IMG/VR virus record: IMGVR_UViG_3300042878_003363
Location: 1-23,350 of that record
Strand: one strand, 5' to 3'
Length of the DNA stretch: 23,350 bases
Origin: a virus
The translations under genes and the position numbers were made by a program. This document shows positions 3,681 to 16,464 of the stretch, piece by piece; position 1 is the stretch's first letter, and the number at the start of each line of letters is the position of its first letter. Under the pieces are notes generated by a model that saw only the letters and a list, made by a program, of their open reading frames with translations, was not told the DNA's origin and did no database searches.

Positions 3681-4102
3681 TGAACTCCATTCACACACTT
3701 CACATCCGCCCCAAAGGTAGCATCTACGTTTTCAGTGACCCCCGCTTCGATCTCGTGGATGAACCCTTTGTGTTGGCGGCTAACACCTCTATCGCGCACC
3801 TGGCCCTGCATTTTGGCCTATCACCCAGGCATGATTTTTTAATGCTTGCTTCCAGCCAGCCCTTTCCCTCTGCCCTGCATTACAGCTTTATCCGCAAGGA
3901 TATGGGCGGGTTTGTTTACCTTGATAAAGCCCATCTCAAGGACGGTCTCACCTTCTGGCTCTGCCCAGCACTCCTGCATTATTTTCCGGCACCGCCGCCA
4001 GTCTTGTATGTCAGCGCAGTTTCGGCTTCCTCATCAAAGCTCCCAGCGCTCCCAGCTTATCCTTGCGTCGAAACGCTGCCGCAAGATCCGCCCTCGGCTT
4101 GA
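3680..4102 (+). CDS. hypothetical protein, possibly DUF6717-like
   Basis: This 140-residue protein starts at the ATG overlapping the preceding stop (TGATG). Its body, IRPKGSIYVFSDPRFDLVDE followed by PFVLAANTSI and later GLTFWLCPALLHYFPAPP, recalls a family of about 100 residues (DUF6717). In that family, as I remember it, a VFDD...EPFV block precedes a conserved WLCPAL motif. The resemblance is from memory and moderate. The last 30 residues or so are low-complexity Ser/Pro/Ala and overlap 92 bases of the convergent gene at 4011, so the true conserved part probably ends near residue 110. Confidence 0.6.
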   Translation: MNSIHTLHIRPKGSIYVFSDPRFDLVDEPFVLAANTSIAHLALHFGLSPRHDFLMLASSQPFPSALHYSFIRKDMGGFVYLDKAHLKDGLTFWLCPALLHYFPAPPPVLYVSAVSASSSKLPALPAYPCVETLPQDPPSA

Positions 4103-4556
4103 TCTTTTGGAACCCTTCCCGCTGATACATTTTTAGCAGCGACTCAACGGGCATCCGCCCAAATGGCACTGGATCTGTGTAGGCTTTCATCTTCATCTTG
4201 TCAGCCCGCCCGAGGACTTTCTTTGTCACTCGCTGAACCGATGCCACCTGCCCACGGGTCGGCATCCCATTCATGTTTTTTTCGTGCACAAGCCAGTCCA
4301 CTGACATGCGCTTCTTATTCTTGCCCTGATGAGTCGAATACCTCGCGTGCGCCCCACCGGGATCTTCCACCTTGTAATACCGCGATTGGGCCCGCGGCTC
4401 ATCACGCTTCACGGTGACCACGCTGCCATCTTTTAGCCTGAACTTATCTGTCCTCAGTCCATCGACATACTTTTTGTCATCGATCTCCCTCGACCACAGC
4501 TCCGTCAGATACTCATCCAACCGCTCCGCCAACATCGTCAGTCTAATCAAAGTCAT
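4011..4556 (-). CDS. minus-strand THQG-motif protein 1 (candidate cargo protein)
   Basis: This basic 181-residue protein is encoded against the surrounding operon. Its N-terminus MTLIRLTMLAERLDEYLTEL aligns without gaps with the N-termini of the minus-strand proteins at 8964 and 12903 (L, LD and LT positions conserved). A THQG tetrapeptide occurs at residues 75-78 (ARYSTHQGKNKK). The middle has KDGSVVTVKRDE and SVDWLVHEKN; the C-terminus is very basic (AFRRKDKLGALGALMRKPKL). No known catalytic motif is evident. Only 21 bases separate its ATG from the divergent clamp gene. Its 3' end overlaps the convergent gene at 3680. The function is inferred only from the shared motifs. Confidence 0.7.
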   Translation of the reverse strand: MTLIRLTMLAERLDEYLTELWSREIDDKKYVDGLRTDKFRLKDGSVVTVKRDEPRAQSRYYKVEDPGGAHARYSTHQGKNKKRMSVDWLVHEKNMNGMPTRGQVASVQRVTKKVLGRADKMKMKAYTDPVPFGRMPVESLLKMYQREGFQKIKPRADLAAAFRRKDKLGALGALMRKPKLR

Positions 4557-8773: not shown

Positions 8774-8983
8774 ATGGCCTACGACGACATCCATTGCCCC
8801 TGCGGCGGTAAAAAACTGACAGGCACCATGCTCTGTGGCGCCTGCATGGACCACTTTGACCAACGACCTGAGCTGTCCATGTTCATGGACACGACCTTCT
8901 CTGTGTCCGAGCGACGCTCCGCCGCCATGATCCTACTCACCCTGGCACGCGAACGGCGGAAGATTAAAACTTCTTCCGCATGA
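8774..8983 (+). CDS. small zinc-ribbon-like protein
   Basis: This 69-residue protein starts MAYDDIHCPCGGKKLTGTML and continues CGACMDHF. A CPC pair and a CGAC pair about 14 residues apart form a plausible four-Cys zinc ribbon at residues 8-24. The second half is a basic helix (SERRSAAMILLTLARERRK). The codons for AAMILLTLA are identical over 26 bases to a segment of the ParB-like gene at 10931. The last 20 bases overlap the convergent minus-strand gene. Confidence 0.6.
   Translation: MAYDDIHCPCGGKKLTGTMLCGACMDHFDQRPELSMFMDTTFSVSERRSAAMILLTLARERRKIKTSSA
8921..8946 (+). repeat. 26-bp exact repeat, copy 1 (partner at 10931-10956)
   Basis: The 26 bases beginning GCCGCCATGATCCTACTCAC are identical to 10931-10956. 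Both copies are read in the same frame and encode AAMILLTL plus the start of Ala. Confidence 0.9.
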
Positions 8984-9641
8984 CATCCCCCAGCGGCACG
9001 GGCTCCCAATGAATCTTGCGTGCGCCCGACTTCACGGCCCGTGGTCGCAAAATCGTCCGAACTTCCCGCGCTGCAATGCCACCGCGCAAAGGTGCCGTCC
9101 GTGCAAAATCACCGATCGCACCACGCACCTGATTGTCTGACCGCTTGAGTGCCTGACCACTGACTCCAACAATTCTGGCTTTGGGCAAATGCTCGATCAC
9201 TTTTTTGCGAGTATCATCTGACGGAAACATGCCCCGTGAGGATTGCAAAACTCCACGATCATTGGCGTGTGCTGCCGCCGTGCCCGCATAGTGTTCCGTC
9301 ATCTGCGGATTGCCGGCCACATACGTTCGTTTTTTCCCTGGGTGATACGGTGTCGTCCATGCCGATTTGAAACGCCCTTTGGCAATTTTCTCCACCTCAC
9401 CCTGATGCGTCCCCCTCCACAGCAACCCTGATTTGTTGCGCAAGTGTTTGTTGCCGTCTGGCAATTCAACATCCCCACCACCAATGCGCTGCAAGTCACC
9501 CTTGGCCTTCTTCATGCGCTTGTAGTGGTGCCGCCAGACCGCCTTGAACGTGTCCTCCGACATCTTGGCAAACTCCGTCACTCCAAACTGAGTCAGCCCA
9601 CGATCCAACTGCGCATTAAGGAGAATCAATTCACGGATCAT
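8964..9641 (-). CDS. minus-strand THQG-motif protein 2 (candidate cargo/effector)
   Basis: This very basic 225-residue protein is isolated on the minus strand. Residues 8-20 (LNAQLDRGLTQFG) match residues 8-20 of the protein at 12903 (LNAKLDAALTFFG) at 9 of 13 positions. A THQG motif at 78-81 is followed by FKSAW at 91-95; the 12903 protein has THQG and FKRVW at nearly the same spacing. The region GLLWRGTHQG...FKSAWTTPYHPGKK...HYAGTAAAHA vaguely recalls an R...T...YA pattern as in ADP-ribosyltransferase-type folds, but the catalytic Glu is not identified. It overlaps the zinc-ribbon gene by 20 bases. A virion-delivered effector is a hypothesis. Confidence 0.7.
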   Translation of the reverse strand: MIRELILLNAQLDRGLTQFGVTEFAKMSEDTFKAVWRHHYKRMKKAKGDLQRIGGGDVELPDGNKHLRNKSGLLWRGTHQGEVEKIAKGRFKSAWTTPYHPGKKRTYVAGNPQMTEHYAGTAAAHANDRGVLQSSRGMFPSDDTRKKVIEHLPKARIVGVSGQALKRSDNQVRGAIGDFARTAPLRGGIAAREVRTILRPRAVKSGARKIHWEPVPLGDVMRKKF

Positions 9642-9949: not shown

Positions 9950-11731
9950 ATGAAAACCACCGCCAAACCTGCCGCCAAACCTGCCGCTAAACCTGCCGCC
10001 AAACCCGCTGCCAAGGTCACCCCCAAAGTCACCGATCCCGCTCCAACCAACATCGCCGATGGCACACGCACCTGGATTCCCACAAAGCTGATCGACCCGC
10101 ATCCGCACAACCGCCAGATCACCCCTGAATCCTGCCGTGGCCTGGCCGACTCCATGAGTTCGCACGGCCAGATCCAGCCCGTCACCGTCCGACCTCACCC
10201 CACCCACCCCGTCCGCTACCAGCTCGGCGCCGGTGCCCGACGCTGGCACGCCGCCAAACTCGCCGGTCTCTCCCTGGACTGCATCGTCCGCGACCTCTCC
10301 GATGCTGAGATCGAAGCCATGCTCGCCATCGAAAACCTGCAGCGCGAAAACCCCGAACCGCGCGAGGAAGCCGCGCAGATCCGCCGCCTCTTTGATTTGC
10401 CCGAGTCCACCCCCGCCAGTGTCGCCGCCATGCTCGGCAAACCGGATGCCTGGGTGAAACGCCGGATGCGCCTGCTGGCCCTGATCGACCCCGTCCATGA
10501 GGCCTGGCAAGACTCCGAAAGCGGCATCTATGGCTTGTCGATCGCCACCATGGAACTCATCGCTGCGCTGAGTCCCGAACTGCAGCTCCACTTTCAGAGC
10601 GAGTGGGGCGACGACGGCTACGACACGCCGACTCATGCCAACATCACCTCCTGGATCGCCGACCTGAGCTGCTCGCTCAAAGACGTCAAATGGCTCGACA
10701 ACCCCGCCACCTTTATCGAAGGCTGCGGGCCCGGAGGCTGTGCCACCAGCAGCGACGCCGCCGACCTGTTCAGCAACACCGAGTTTGCCGATGCCAAGCA
10801 GTCCAAGTGCGCTCAATGCCTGAACCCGGCCTGCTTCAACAAGCGCAAAGACCTGGCCCACAATGATGCCTGGCAGACCGCCCTCGCCAAAGCTCCCGAA
10901 GGCTACTACGCCACCACCGACTCCTATCAGGCCGCCATGATCCTACTCACCCTGGCCGATCAAAGCACCCTGAAACTGCGGCGGGAATATGAGTTCAACG
11001 GCTGGAAGAACTGCAAAAAGACCGACCCGAACGCCAAACCCTTCCTGGAAGAGAAGAACGGTGCGGTCAAACTGAACTGGAAGACACCGCCTGCCAACAG
11101 CAGCGGCAGCCCCCAAATCCTGCTCAAAACCGCCGGACAAGTCGACCTCAAAACGCCGGAAGAATCCGTGCAAGCCAGTATCGATCGCGTGAACGGCAAA
11201 CGCTACACCCTCGTCCTCGCCGAACTCAGAGCGCATCTGGAAAAGGCCCCGATGCCGCTGCCTGATCCTGATCCGCGCTACACGCCCACGGAACAACTCA
11301 ACGAGCGGATGCTCAAACTCGCCGCCACCTTTGGCACCAATCACTCCGCCAAATCCGCCTGCACCACCCTCTACGAAGACGACGCCGAGGCGATCGATGA
11401 AGAGGAAGAGGCTGAGGACGCCGAGCCGACCCCTGATGAACTGGCCGAAGCTAAACTCACCGCCTGGCAGAGTTTCCGCCAACTCGGGCAGGACAGCGCC
11501 TGTGAACGGCTATGGAAACAAGTCCGCCGAGTCCTGCTCCACCGCCTTGCCACCCGCTCCTACACCGACCGCAAAAGCGACCTGATCAAGACCGAATTCA
11601 TCAACGAACTCCATCACATTGCCACCCTCACTCGCTTCGACTTTGCCGCATCCTACGTCAAAGCCGCCGCCGCCTGCAAACCACCCGCCAGCCTCAAGCA
11701 CCTCAACCCCACCACCCTGAAAGCCGCCTAA
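9950..11731 (+). CDS. ParB/RepB-like protein with Lys/Pro/Ala repeat tail
   Basis: This 593-residue protein begins with four KPAA repeats, a histone-H1-like basic tail. It is followed by a ParB nuclease/CTPase-type domain at about residues 40-140. That domain shows RGLADSMSSHGQIQPVTVRP, YQLGAGARRWHAAKLAGL (the GERRxxA box) and AIENLQRENPEPREEA (the ENLQR box). A helix-turn-helix region follows (STPASVAAMLGKPDAWVKRR). A Cys cluster near residues 260-305 (CGPGGCATSS, then KCAQCLNPACFNKRK) suggests a metal site. The second half is helical with an acidic EEEEAEDAE linker and ends TTLKAA. Larger phage and plasmid ParB-like proteins of this layout act in partition, replication control or DNA cutting. 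No ParA was found in the window, so a simple partition role is not assured. Confidence 0.82.
   Translation: MKTTAKPAAKPAAKPAAKPAAKVTPKVTDPAPTNIADGTRTWIPTKLIDPHPHNRQITPESCRGLADSMSSHGQIQPVTVRPHPTHPVRYQLGAGARRWHAAKLAGLSLDCIVRDLSDAEIEAMLAIENLQRENPEPREEAAQIRRLFDLPESTPASVAAMLGKPDAWVKRRMRLLALIDPVHEAWQDSESGIYGLSIATMELIAALSPELQLHFQSEWGDDGYDTPTHANITSWIADLSCSLKDVKWLDNPATFIEGCGPGGCATSSDAADLFSNTEFADAKQSKCAQCLNPACFNKRKDLAHNDAWQTALAKAPEGYYATTDSYQAAMILLTLADQSTLKLRREYEFNGWKNCKKTDPNAKPFLEEKNGAVKLNWKTPPANSSGSPQILLKTAGQVDLKTPEESVQASIDRVNGKRYTLVLAELRAHLEKAPMPLPDPDPRYTPTEQLNERMLKLAATFGTNHSAKSACTTLYEDDAEAIDEEEEAEDAEPTPDELAEAKLTAWQSFRQLGQDSACERLWKQVRRVLLHRLATRSYTDRKSDLIKTEFINELHHIATLTRFDFAASYVKAAAACKPPASLKHLNPTTLKAA
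9964..10014 (+). repeat. 12-bp tandem repeat coding the KPAA tail
   Basis: Four near-identical 12-base units (AAACCTGCCGCC and variants) at the 5' end of the ParB-like gene encode KPAA four times. The unit length is a multiple of three, so gain or loss of copies would change the tail length without breaking the frame. Confidence 0.85.
10931..10956 (+). repeat. 26-bp exact repeat, copy 2 (partner at 8921-8946)
   Basis: Identical to 8921-8946 and in the same reading frame, inside the ParB-like gene. The flanking bases do not match, so the identity is sharply bounded. Confidence 0.9.
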
Positions 11732-12535: not shown

Positions 12536-12906
12536 CCACCCCAGCCGAACAAGTCGCCACCGCCCTCTGCTACGTCCAGCACCATCAGAGTTTCAACAGC
12601 GGCCAGCAGCAACCACCACCGCGCCACACCGAACTTTTCCGGTCCAACCACGGCCGGCCGTCCGAAGGTGCGAAACGCATGGGCAAAACCGAATACGAGA
12701 CCCTGCCATTCCGCACCATGATCGTCCTCGCCGCTGAGGTGATTCGCCTGCGATCCGTGGCGGCCGATCTGCAGGAGTCTTTGCAACGCATACTCCAAGC
12801 CTCAAACGAGCGAATGGCCGCTGCCGGAGATCTACTGGATTACCAAGACACCAATCGGCAATCTGGCGACATCGCCCGTGCCGCCATCGCCAAAGCCCAA
12901 GCCTAG
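12532..12906 (+). CDS. hypothetical helical protein
   Basis: This 124-residue protein is coupled to the previous gene by an ATGA overlap. The N-terminus is MTTPAEQVATALCYVQHHQS and is followed by a Gln/Pro-rich stretch. Residues about 60-95 form a long amphipathic helix (MIVLAAEVIRLRSVAADLQE, SLQRILQASNERM), likely a coiled coil. The C-terminus is AIAKAQA. Its stop overlaps the stop of the convergent minus-strand gene by four bases. Function unknown. Confidence 0.6.
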   Translation: MTTPAEQVATALCYVQHHQSFNSGQQQPPPRHTELFRSNHGRPSEGAKRMGKTEYETLPFRTMIVLAAEVIRLRSVAADLQESLQRILQASNERMAAAGDLLDYQDTNRQSGDIARAAIAKAQA

Positions 12907-13307
12907 ACAATTTTAGATTTCCACACCCGCTTAAAGTCGGCATTCGCCACCGTCCGAAGTGACCGGCCCTGATGTGTTTCTTTCTTGAAAATATTTCCAG
13001 GAGGCTGAACCGGAACAAGTTTGCCAAGATGCCTAGCAGCTATGACCCGGTGATGCCCATCGACCACACGGAATTTTCCATAAGCCTTATCGACTGAAAC
13101 CGGAGGCGGCTCCGAGCCTTTTGCCCATTTCTTAGCATACTCCATCGCCCGCGATTTTTTGTGCTTAGAAACTCCGCTCCAACCCTCTTTCCAACCCCTC
13201 TCACCAACAGCGGGAAGTAAGGAGTGCGGTGAGACATAAACTGCCCGACCAAAAAACGTCAAAGCAGCGTCCAGTTTGGCATTCAATCGCGTCAAATCTA
13301 GGCTCAT
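12903..13307 (-). CDS. minus-strand THQG-motif protein 3 with ParB-like DGHHR domain
   Basis: This basic 134-residue protein begins MSLDLTRLNAKLDAALTFFG, sharing the N-terminal motif of the other two isolated minus-strand proteins. Residues about 68-100 (PPVSVDKAYGKFRVVDGHHR, then VIAARHLGKLVPVQ) match the start of a ParB/sulfiredoxin-like nuclease domain with its conserved DGHHR box. THQG lies at 111-114 and FKRVW at 125-129. The protein could be a small nuclease or nucleotide-hydrolysing effector. It lies downstream of the terminase genes and in their direction, separated by a 490-base non-coding stretch. The start sits directly behind GGAGG (GTGGAGGATG), too close for normal spacing. Confidence 0.72.
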   Translation of the reverse strand: MSLDLTRLNAKLDAALTFFGRAVYVSPHSLLPAVGERGWKEGWSGVSKHKKSRAMEYAKKWAKGSEPPPVSVDKAYGKFRVVDGHHRVIAARHLGKLVPVQPPGNIFKKETHQGRSLRTVANADFKRVWKSKIV

Positions 13308-13737: not shown

Positions 13738-13799
13738 ACGATTTTCCCAAAATGATGGGAAACACGCGATTTAGCGAGAAATCGTGAAAAACCGTCAAC

Positions 13800-15575
13800 T
13801 CAGATCAGCGGGAGCTGAGCCGCGCCGTCTGACGCCTCGAACAATCCGCACATGGCGGCACAGGCAATCTGCATTCGCTCACAGGCCTCCAGATGGTCGT
13901 CCACGCGCTTCTGATACCAGATGTAACTGGCACCGCCCCGACCGCCTTGGACGAGTTTGCGCTCCCAGGCGGTGACCTGCCGCTTGTATTCGTGGTCTTC
14001 GTTCAGCGGCAACTGCCAGTCGCCCAGATCGCCATACATCATCATCACCAACCTCTCGCGTGTCGCCGGTGCCGAGAACAACCACAACGGCTGCGCGGCC
14101 ACCTGACCCTGCATCCGCGTGCCCATGGCCGGATCGAATTTCGACAGCGCCCAGATCGCCTTGACGCCTTTGTCCTGCGTAAAAAATTGTTTTTCCTCAC
14201 CACGGATGGCTTTCCACAGTCCGCCGCTCTCCATGACCAACTTGTAAATCTCCGCAGTCGAGTAAGCCGAGTCGATCGCCACATTGCGGGGATCTACGCC
14301 CCACTCTTTCTGCAGCCGCACCAGATCCTCACGCGTGTAAACTTTTTCGTGGTGCAGTTTCCGCGACTGTCCATACTGACCCCAGGCGCGGATGACCACC
14401 CAATAATGCCGGCCACCTTTGCCTTGCACATCGATCGTCATGAAGCGCCGGACTTCGTTTTCCCACGCATCACCTGGCAGGTAATTGTGCTCGCGCTCTT
14501 TCAGGAACTCATCGTCCTTGGCGAAGCGCATCCGGTCCGCCCACACTTTGCCACGGGTTTCGTTCCAGTGATCTTTGAGCGGCGTGATGTCACCGGACTT
14601 CAAGGCCTGTGAGGCGCGCAGAAACTCCTGGAACTGTTCCTCCCAACTGGTGAAGTGCGGGAGCAGCGCGTTCCATGTGTAGCTTTTGTAGTCCGCTGGC
14701 GCCGTGAGATTGTAGGCCACCCAATCGCCTTCACGACTGAACCATTTCCGATCCGCGCCCGATGGCCGGATGTCGCGATGCTGATGCTGGCAAGCCTCGC
14801 ACTCAAACCGCAATGTCTTGCACGCTTCATCGACATTCCACACACCATTCGGGTGCGTGATCTCGTTGTCGTCCCACTTGATGCCACCTGGCTTTTTCTT
14901 CTCTCCCCAATCGAGCACCTGCATGTGACCGCACGATTTGCATGGCACATGCCAATGCTCCTGACTGCCCGCCAAGAAGGCACGATCCATCATGTCCTCC
15001 TCCATGTCCGGACACGACACCATGAACTGCTTGTAGTTATGCGGGTAAGAGCGCGTGCGCTTGCTCACCATCTCCAACGCCCCAGGCCGCCACTGCCGCA
15101 CCTCATCGAGAAACAAGTAACGGTAAGGCAGCGACTGAATCGAAGCCTTGGCATCGGCGCCGGTGATGTTGAAGTAGAAGCCGCCAAAGTCCGCCGAGAG
15201 CTTGCGCTTTTTGTCGCGCTTTTTCGGCAGCTTCTCTAGCAGCTTCGGCGTGTTTTCCCAGAACGGCCACAGGTAGGCCTCAGCCATCTTCTTGGCCTCC
15301 GGCAGCGATTTGGTCACCCACAAAAACGGACCGGGATCTTCCAGAAACGCGTAGCCCATGCAGCCATACATGAGCACGGTCTTCGTGCTCTGCGCACTGC
15401 ACTGGCACGCCTGCTTGCGGATCGCCGGGTCGGCGAAGTCACGCATGATCTTCTCCTGAAATCTCAGGTCAGGGTCCCATCGGTCTCCGTTATGCAGCCT
15501 GAAGTTGGCTCGTGCATAAACGTGTGGAGCAACGGTGGTAGGCGGCTTGCAAGTTTCGCAGATACGTTCCTCCAA
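13800..15575 (-). CDS. phage terminase large subunit (GpA-like)
   Basis: This 591-residue protein matches lambda GpA-type packaging motors. It has RWDPDLRFQEKIMRDFAD (N-terminal conserved block), a deviant Walker A near 60-66 (CSAQSTKT), Walker B YRYLFLDEVRQW (about 151-162) and a zinc ribbon (CKSCGH, CEACQH). The nuclease half has metal-site Asp residues in FMTIDVQGKGGRHYWVVIRA and VAIDSAYSTAEIYKL. It cuts concatemeric DNA and pumps it into proheads. The only plausible independent start is TTG at 15573-15575, without an upstream Shine-Dalgarno sequence. The frame is also reached from the small-subunit gene by a -1 slip on an A10 run. No portal gene follows downstream. Confidence 0.9.
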   Translation of the reverse strand: MEERICETCKPPTTVAPHVYARANFRLHNGDRWDPDLRFQEKIMRDFADPAIRKQACQCSAQSTKTVLMYGCMGYAFLEDPGPFLWVTKSLPEAKKMAEAYLWPFWENTPKLLEKLPKKRDKKRKLSADFGGFYFNITGADAKASIQSLPYRYLFLDEVRQWRPGALEMVSKRTRSYPHNYKQFMVSCPDMEEDMMDRAFLAGSQEHWHVPCKSCGHMQVLDWGEKKKPGGIKWDDNEITHPNGVWNVDEACKTLRFECEACQHQHRDIRPSGADRKWFSREGDWVAYNLTAPADYKSYTWNALLPHFTSWEEQFQEFLRASQALKSGDITPLKDHWNETRGKVWADRMRFAKDDEFLKEREHNYLPGDAWENEVRRFMTIDVQGKGGRHYWVVIRAWGQYGQSRKLHHEKVYTREDLVRLQKEWGVDPRNVAIDSAYSTAEIYKLVMESGGLWKAIRGEEKQFFTQDKGVKAIWALSKFDPAMGTRMQGQVAAQPLWLFSAPATRERLVMMMYGDLGDWQLPLNEDHEYKRQVTAWERKLVQGGRGGASYIWYQKRVDDHLEACERMQIACAAMCGLFEASDGAAQLPLI

Positions 15576-16243
15576 AACACTTTTTTTTTTGCGCCCTCAG
15601 GAATCGCAAACTGAGACAGCACCTCGTCAACGGCAGCACCAATACGCTTACCCGCCTCTGGCACCGTTTCACCAACCACGGACGGAGCCAGTGAATGCTT
15701 CATCGCTCGAAGGCCTTGCACCATGCGAGCAAACTGCTCGACCACGATCCGCACGACATCGTCTGTCTGCGCACTACGCCCCTCCATCTCGTCCACCTCC
15801 ATCTGCTTTATCCGCAGATCGAGTTCAGCGTGATTCTTCTTGATGCTCTCCAGATCGCTCCCCTTTGCACGCTGCCCAAGCCCGCTCGCGTGCATCCAAG
15901 CACGCCAAGCATTCACTTCATAGCGACCATCATCAGTCGGTTGTGGTGCTCCAGGTTTCCGCATCCACCGCTGAATGGTTTTGCGGTCACTCAAGCCCAA
16001 CGCTTCCGCCAGCATCGTTTGGTTCGCCACATAGATAGCACCAGCACTCGCCTCAAGATTCAAACTCGGCTGGCCACGATCCGCAGCCTCCAGCCTTCTG
16101 AGTTGTTCGGCCGTTAGCGGTCGGCCTGATCTGGCAAAGGCACGGATATTCGCCAAGTCCGTTTGCCGGATCGTCTCTAAATCCTCCGCAATACAAGACT
16201 CGCCCTCATCCTCTTCTTGATGGCCTTCCACTTCACTCATCAT
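15464..16243 (-). CDS. phage terminase small subunit (Nu1-like DNA-binding)
   Basis: The reading frame gives 259 residues. Residues about 73-117 (NQTMLAEALGLSDRKTIQRW, MRKPGAPQPTDDGRYEVNAW) form a Nu1-like winged helix-turn-helix that would recognise the packaging site. A long helix (LESIKKNHAELDLRIKQMEV) follows, then a dimerisation-type region. Around residue 220 the frame crosses a run of ten A residues (KKK). Beyond it, about 37 residues overlap the terminase large-subunit frame and look non-native, so the functional protein may end or shift there. The start is ATGATGAGT, at the edge of a palindrome. Confidence 0.8.
   Translation of the reverse strand: MMSEVEGHQEEDEGESCIAEDLETIRQTDLANIRAFARSGRPLTAEQLRRLEAADRGQPSLNLEASAGAIYVANQTMLAEALGLSDRKTIQRWMRKPGAPQPTDDGRYEVNAWRAWMHASGLGQRAKGSDLESIKKNHAELDLRIKQMEVDEMEGRSAQTDDVVRIVVEQFARMVQGLRAMKHSLAPSVVGETVPEAGKRIGAAVDEVLSQFAIPEGAKKKVFWRNVSAKLASRLPPLLHTFMHEPTSGCITETDGTLT
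15581..15590 (-). promoter_or_regulatory. A10 slippery run joining the terminase frames
   Basis: The minus-strand message reads GCA AAA AAA AAA GTG in the small-subunit frame. A -1 slip gives AGT GTT TTG GAG GAA, the large-subunit frame. GGAGG lies a few bases downstream. Runs of nine or more A are known sites of transcriptional slippage and ribosomal frameshifting. A homopolymer assembly error is the alternative. Confidence 0.5.
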
Positions 16244-16269
16244 GAGACAAGTCCCGTCAACTTGTCTCA
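16243..16269 (-). promoter_or_regulatory. 10-bp inverted repeat at the terminase start (operator-like)
   Basis: TGAGACAAGT (16243-16252) and ACTTGTCTCA (16260-16269) are perfect inverted copies with a seven-base spacer, touching the start codon of the small terminase gene. Binding there, or a hairpin in the message, could block expression. It may be an operator for the XRE repressor, the terminase itself or a host regulator. Confidence 0.55.
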
Positions 16270-16464
16270 GTGGTCATTTTACAGACTGATGCCACTCAAG
16301 TTATAGGACAAGAATGGGACATTATGAAAAAAACCAAACTCTGCGCGATCTTTCCCCTTCGGTATAACCCAACGTGTCCCACACAATAAAAGATTCCTTG
16401 CTCCGGTGGTGGTCAACTCTGTAATCACGGATAACAAACAGACCTTCGATCTTGTGACCTCATC

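Follow-up and report, generated by a model that had tools for sequence, protein, structure and literature searches.

Programmed slippage at a run of nine or ten adenines very likely (with a probability of roughly 0.82) leads to the production of both the terminase small subunit (TerS) and a fusion of TerS with the terminase large subunit (TerL) in a clade of phages. This is inferred from the sequence alone, with the caveat that there are no transcript, peptide or reporter data. The run was found in the window, which is the whole 23,350-nt stretch of viral DNA that was analysed, and it lies on the minus strand between the two terminase genes. The presence of the run and the frame relation of the genes on either side of it are shown. 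The features of the locus are as follows:

15581..15590, minus strand: A10 run, the putative slippage site (GC-AAAAAAAAAA-GTG), with A9/A10 kept in 24/25 clade lineages
15464..16243, minus strand: TerS open reading frame, 259 aa, ATG start, phrog_57 match
13800..15587, minus strand: TerL frame, which lies -1 with respect to TerS and is entered from the run
15573..15575, minus strand: TTG, the only ATG/GTG/TTG before the TerL conserved block, not conserved as a start
15464..15580, minus strand: dual-coded overlap of the TerS tail (VFWRNVSAKL...) in frame 0 and the TerL N-terminus (SVLEERICE...) in frame -1
13800..16243, minus strand: predicted TerS-TerL fusion, 814 aa, a computed translation that has not been observed experimentally

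The A10 run and its two reading frames

The window TerS was identified by a profile match to phrog_57, the terminase small subunit (6e-11), and this match was obtained for 21/21 clade TerS, with TerS adjoining TerL. A PDB fold search with the TerS model gave no significant match. TerL matches both Pfam GpA_ATPase PF05876 (1.8e-33) and phrog_15 (2.1e-62) and is a GpA-type large terminase, of which the ATPase domain starts at approximately residue 39 of the TTG-started TerL ORF.

A preliminary description of the window had claimed that an A10 run separates the two subunits near TerS codon 220 and that a -1 slip there enters the TerL frame exactly. These claims held: re-reading the sequence confirmed A10 at 15581-15590, which corresponds to TerS codons 218-221, with 217 TerS codons before GCA and with ...GAG GGC GCA AAA AAA AAA GTG TTT TGG AGG AAC... 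as the minus-strand context. In the TerL frame, the same stretch reads TGA GGG CGC AAA AAA AAA AGT GTT TTG GAG GAA; the TGA closes the frame just upstream of the run, and from this codon onward the frame is open to 13800. Also confirmed was the claim that no ATG is present near the TerL N-terminal block, as the first ATG in the frame is Met44 of the TTG-started ORF and lies within the conserved block.

Two main products are predicted for the window, TerS of 259 aa and the fusion of 814 aa, the latter resulting from one added A or a -1 shift. Further predicted products are an 813-aa fusion (two A lost) and a 250-aa third-frame product. TerS residues 1-217 are common to both main products, A218-K219-K220-K221 are encoded on the run, and residues 222-259 form the C-terminal tail of the unslipped product. 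The predicted fusion junction is ...IPEG-AKKK-SVLEERICE..., with AIPEGAKKKSVLEER as the junction-spanning peptide.

The A10 run is the sole stretch of at least 8 identical bases in the window. Across 25 related loci (171,508 nt), A/T runs of at least 9 were counted 24 times at the junction and just twice elsewhere, so that the junction runs exceed what is expected by chance.

The preliminary description had also suggested that the TerS residues after the run merely reflect out-of-frame coding of TerL, and this held only partly. The overlap is real and its dual coding is shown, and both frames after the run look functional, based on three lines of evidence: third-position differences are suppressed in the overlap (0.30, versus 0.41 in the following TerL and 0.53 in the upstream TerS, over 12 pairs), the Trp of the FW motif that follows the run in TerS is nearly invariant, and TerS tail residues 222-241 are modeled as a confident helix by AlphaFold2. 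It is therefore likely, again judged from sequence alone, that unslipped TerS is a real product and that slippage adds the fusion to it.

Several other elements were observed around the locus. Almost every clade member carries a GTTGAC(A/G) motif ~18-24 nt ahead of the TerS start codon. In the window (16243-16269, minus strand), it is part of a perfect 10-bp dyad, TGAGACAAGT-TGACGGG-ACTTGTCTCA, reaching into the start codon, and in lineage L012 both dyad arms are changed (GGGACA/TGTCCC); the dyad could be an operator, a TerS site or an RNA hairpin. Further upstream of TerS (16310-16420, minus strand), a non-coding block, TGACCACCACC...GGGACA...GTTTGGTTTTTTT...TGTCCCATT, is conserved in the window, L003, L006 and L012, and is a candidate cos/pac or promoter region. 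A second GTTGACG directly follows the TerL stop (13793-13799, minus strand), on the same strand as the one before TerS. In addition, the ORFs at 9950-11731 (plus strand) and 12903-13307, 4011-4556 and 8964-9641 (minus strand) are ParB-related or short; these include a large ParB_N protein and a small ParB-like match adjoining TerL (phrog_1033), and further short ORFs among them open with a similar LxxxLDxxLT and are apparently repeated small genes.

Conservation of the run and the lack of TerL start codons in some lineages

The same virus was found with A10 in two further metagenomes, giving three assemblies in all, each with A10. Seven viral contigs with TerL relatives of 73-100% identity all retain GC-A10-GTGTTYTGG while the flanking sequence varies, and relatives detected by protein homology still carry the run at TerL identities as low as ~40%. 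L007 (73%) has CTG in place of the window TTG, and L012 (69%) carries A10 in another register (GCC AAA AAA AAA ACA), again without ATG/GTG/TTG.

Loci selected by pattern are biased towards the run, and the statistics were therefore taken from homology-selected loci. Distant homologues were fetched, regardless of the run, using a profile of divergent TerLs in searches that covered viral contigs, bacterial genome contigs and Verrucomicrobiota genomes, and the junctions were analysed at 90% dereplication; a repeat scan with another profile yielded no new clade members. In a maximum-likelihood tree of 61 TerL rows, 25 lineages form one clade with 100/100 support, comprising 14 lineages with A10, 10 with A9 and one (L057) without the run. 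Of the run-bearing lineages, 23 have TerL in the -1 frame with respect to TerS and one (L133) has it in +1. No run was present in any of the tree rows outside the clade, in any of the 50 outgroup lineages (where the longest A run near the start is 6), in Verrucomicrobia phage P8625 (L127) or in further homologues outside the clade (L229-L253). When the run is placed as a label on the TerL tree, two changes are needed, most simply a single gain and one loss, the latter in L057. Clade members were also found in Akkermansiaceae and Verrucomicrobiales MAGs (L123, L124, L125), which indicates Verrucomicrobia as hosts. Among the isolated phages in INPHARED, no TerL with >60% identity was found, and no isolate has the system.

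It is shown that the run is kept at the nucleotide level throughout the clade, beyond what the protein needs, and that the A count is what is conserved. Lys codons within the run are AAA in 67/67 cases (24 runs), versus 30% elsewhere (424/1400). At least nine A's are present in every run-bearing lineage, whatever the codon phase, which can be GCA AAA AAA AAA, GCT AAA AAA AAA, GCT CAA AAA AAA ACT, GAT GAA AAA AAA ACT or GAT CAA AAA AAA AAC. The encoded residues vary with it (AKKK, AQKK, TQKK, DEKK, DQKKN, FKKK and LKKK), and since at least nine A's are kept across these different phases, a KKK protein motif cannot explain the run. The spacing after the run also varies, with a 12-nt insert between the run and the FW motif in L114 and a longer spacer in L064/L069. 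L133 (G222), in which the run is A9, is the only clade member with TerL in +1 with respect to TerS, and this may reflect either an indel in the MAG or a lineage that is served by the loss of one A.

Start codons were counted as ATG, GTG or TTG within 36 nt of the junction on either side (-36 to +36). None was present in 8/25 clade lineages (L007, L012, L048, L052, L054, L059, L069 and L124), versus at least one in 47/50 outgroup lineages, and it is thus shown that several clade lineages have no usable TerL start codon. At the place of the window TTG (+12), 13 lineages have TTG, ten have CTG, one has ATG (L057) and one has no such codon (L059). The earlier claim that this TTG is the best independent TerL start in the window held insofar as it is the only ATG/GTG/TTG ahead of the conserved TerL block. 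The replacement of TTG by CTG does not prove that a start is missing, because TerL in outgroup lineages L080 and L086 seemingly starts at a CTG overlapping the TerS stop (CTGA), where their relatives have ATGA, GTGA or TTGA. In some clade lineages, an NTG is present just before the run (ATG in L047/L123).

L057 and L059 are sister lineages. In L059, TTT stands before A9 in frame 0, and the sequence in the TerL frame is TAA AAA AAA AGT AGG CTT CGC, after which ATG, GTG, TTG and CTG are all absent until +96. With a TAA inside the run and no start-like codon, even CTG, the TerL frame of L059 begins in the run. L057 has no run, with GGA CGA CGG CGG GAC CAA ACA TGG at this place and a TerL ATG at +12, which is likely a secondary loss of the run with an ATG at the junction instead. 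The pair offers a naturally occurring exchange of putative slippage for ordinary initiation.

Proposed slippage and the rival explanations

In the proposed mechanism, most transcripts or ribosomes would pass straight through the run and give TerS ending in its own C-terminal tail. Some would slip by one base, because the mRNA gains one A or loses two or because the ribosome shifts by -1, and would enter the TerL frame to give the TerS-TerL fusion, which might also be cleaved later. The joint of the fusion would fall at the place where, in other phages, the C-terminus of TerS contacts the N-terminus of TerL. In P22, TerL residues 1-58 bind TerS residues 140-162 (PMC9611059), which makes joining of the two subunits plausible. 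Against the proposal, no gene that already joins TerS and TerL in the DNA was observed. The occurrence and rate of slippage, the fusion as the chief form in which TerL is made and its ability to work in packaging are inferences only. The slippage-made fusion that the preliminary description had proposed is thus supported as the best explanation, with the fusion, its yield and the slipping agent unproven.

If slippage is the right reading, RNA polymerase is the likely slipping agent rather than the ribosome, by a clear but not decisive margin. The locus meets two sequence criteria for programmed transcriptional slippage, namely a homopolymer of about nine or more A/T at the frame switch and conservation at the nucleotide level. 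Bacterial RNA polymerase is documented to slip where 9 A or T follow one another (PMC5009743), and dnaX genes with 10 A have been assigned to transcriptional slippage (PMC3711429). This reading is favored by the threshold of at least nine and by the absence of both AAG variants and downstream structure. The +1 frame of L133 adds to it, since transcriptional slippage, acting in one direction or the other, could reach that frame as well.

Programmed -1 ribosomal frameshifting on A_AAA_AAA would give the same fusion without a role for RNA polymerase, and as a sub-case of slippage it remains possible. An in-phase A AAA AAA heptamer is present in every -1 lineage, and heptamers of this kind (A_AAA_AAG or A_AAA_AAA) serve in E. 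coli dnaX and in many IS elements (PMC5009743, PMC3711429). However, seven A's would be enough, yet all run-bearing lineages keep 9 or 10; AAG, the last codon favored in E. coli, is used by no lineage; and TerL of L133 is in +1. A downstream stimulatory RNA structure beyond shuffled controls was not found either (mean z -0.13, 24 lineages), although this is not disqualifying, as some tailed-phage frameshifts lack one (PMC5009743). A ribosomal contribution can thus not be excluded. Less likely is separate translation of TerL from a YTG after the run or an NTG before it, with the A-rich stretch aiding ribosome binding and encoding KKK. A-rich leaders can help initiation without a Shine-Dalgarno sequence, TTG is present at +12 in 13 lineages and ATG in L057, and several lineages have ATG/GTG/TTG at -9. 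Against this, L059 has neither start, eight lineages lack ATG/GTG/TTG, and a TAA within the run blocks the -9 start in the GCT-AAA lineages. Moreover, the A count is conserved and KKK is not (QKK, EKK, QKKN), and an A-rich leader would not need an exact run of at least nine. With a YTG after the run in most lineages and an NTG before it in some, independent initiation could still add to or replace the product.

Phase variation at the DNA level, in which replication slippage to A11 gives an in-frame fused gene in some genomes, is very unlikely. Homopolymers do slip in replication too, and the frame relation has changed in L133, but neither A11 nor a TerS-TerL gene fused in frame occurs in any clade contig, the three assemblies of this virus agree on A10, and on/off switching makes little sense because TerL is essential. 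A search of viral contigs for GCN+A10 gave no match, but the pattern was ill-built (requiring A11 if N = A), and its result speaks only weakly for an absence of A11 versions. A sequencing or assembly artefact, with a true A9 or A11 and ordinary genes, can be all but dismissed and is already refuted for the clade. Homopolymers are error-prone; however, assemblies and lineages that are independent of each other share the identical tract, and the sequence flanking it is in frame on either side. The preliminary description had named two refuting outcomes, an assembly error and homologues that lack the run but start normally. Neither was borne out: three assemblies of the virus and another 23 lineages have the run, in several phases, and a normal start without a run was found only outside the clade and in L057.

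Known systems and significance

The dnaX gene of Thermus thermophilus and the poly-A dnaX genes of Chlorobi use programmed transcriptional slippage on 9-10 A/T. The terminase locus similarly has 9-10 identical bases in a coding frame, a shared N-terminus and no required RNA structure, but it belongs to an unrelated gene family, its predicted second product joins two normally separate packaging subunits, and experiments are lacking. Like lambda gpG/gpGT, the tail assembly chaperone, it is a phage structural gene pair, here predicted to give a short protein and a -1 frameshift fusion; in lambda, a tail gene, the ribosome and a short slippery site are involved, whereas here a long A run lies in a terminase. 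A-run slippage in IS transposases (OrfA/OrfAB) also yields a small DNA-binding N-terminal protein and a fusion that adds the catalytic part, although transposase and terminase are unrelated proteins. Recoding in a phage terminase gene has been proposed for Streptomyces phage Hau3, where the suggested translational bypassing (PMC5009743) involves a UUA codon and not an A run. Finally, the contact between the TerS C-terminus and the TerL N-terminus would be shared with the lambda and P22 holoenzymes (mapped in P22, PMC9611059), in which the subunits are separate chains, whereas covalent joining at this interface is predicted here. The preliminary description had called such a fusion unusual, and this held: no report of a slippage-made TerS-TerL fusion was found in the open-access literature searched (supplements excluded), and the review in PMC5009743 describes none.

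If TerL is reached by slippage, gene callers mis-start it in these phages. A bolder reading, that the whole Verrucomicrobia phage clade makes TerL mainly or only as the fusion via transcriptional slippage, could as readily prove wrong as right; if true, the ratio of small to large subunit would be set by the rate of RNA polymerase slippage at A9/A10. Terminase subunits are known as two separate chains, of which the ratio and contact are hard to pin down. If the slippage reading is correct, a clade with a slippage-set ratio and a covalent TerS-TerL chain would make this stoichiometry directly testable, and packaging would join the functions that are under programmed slippage control.
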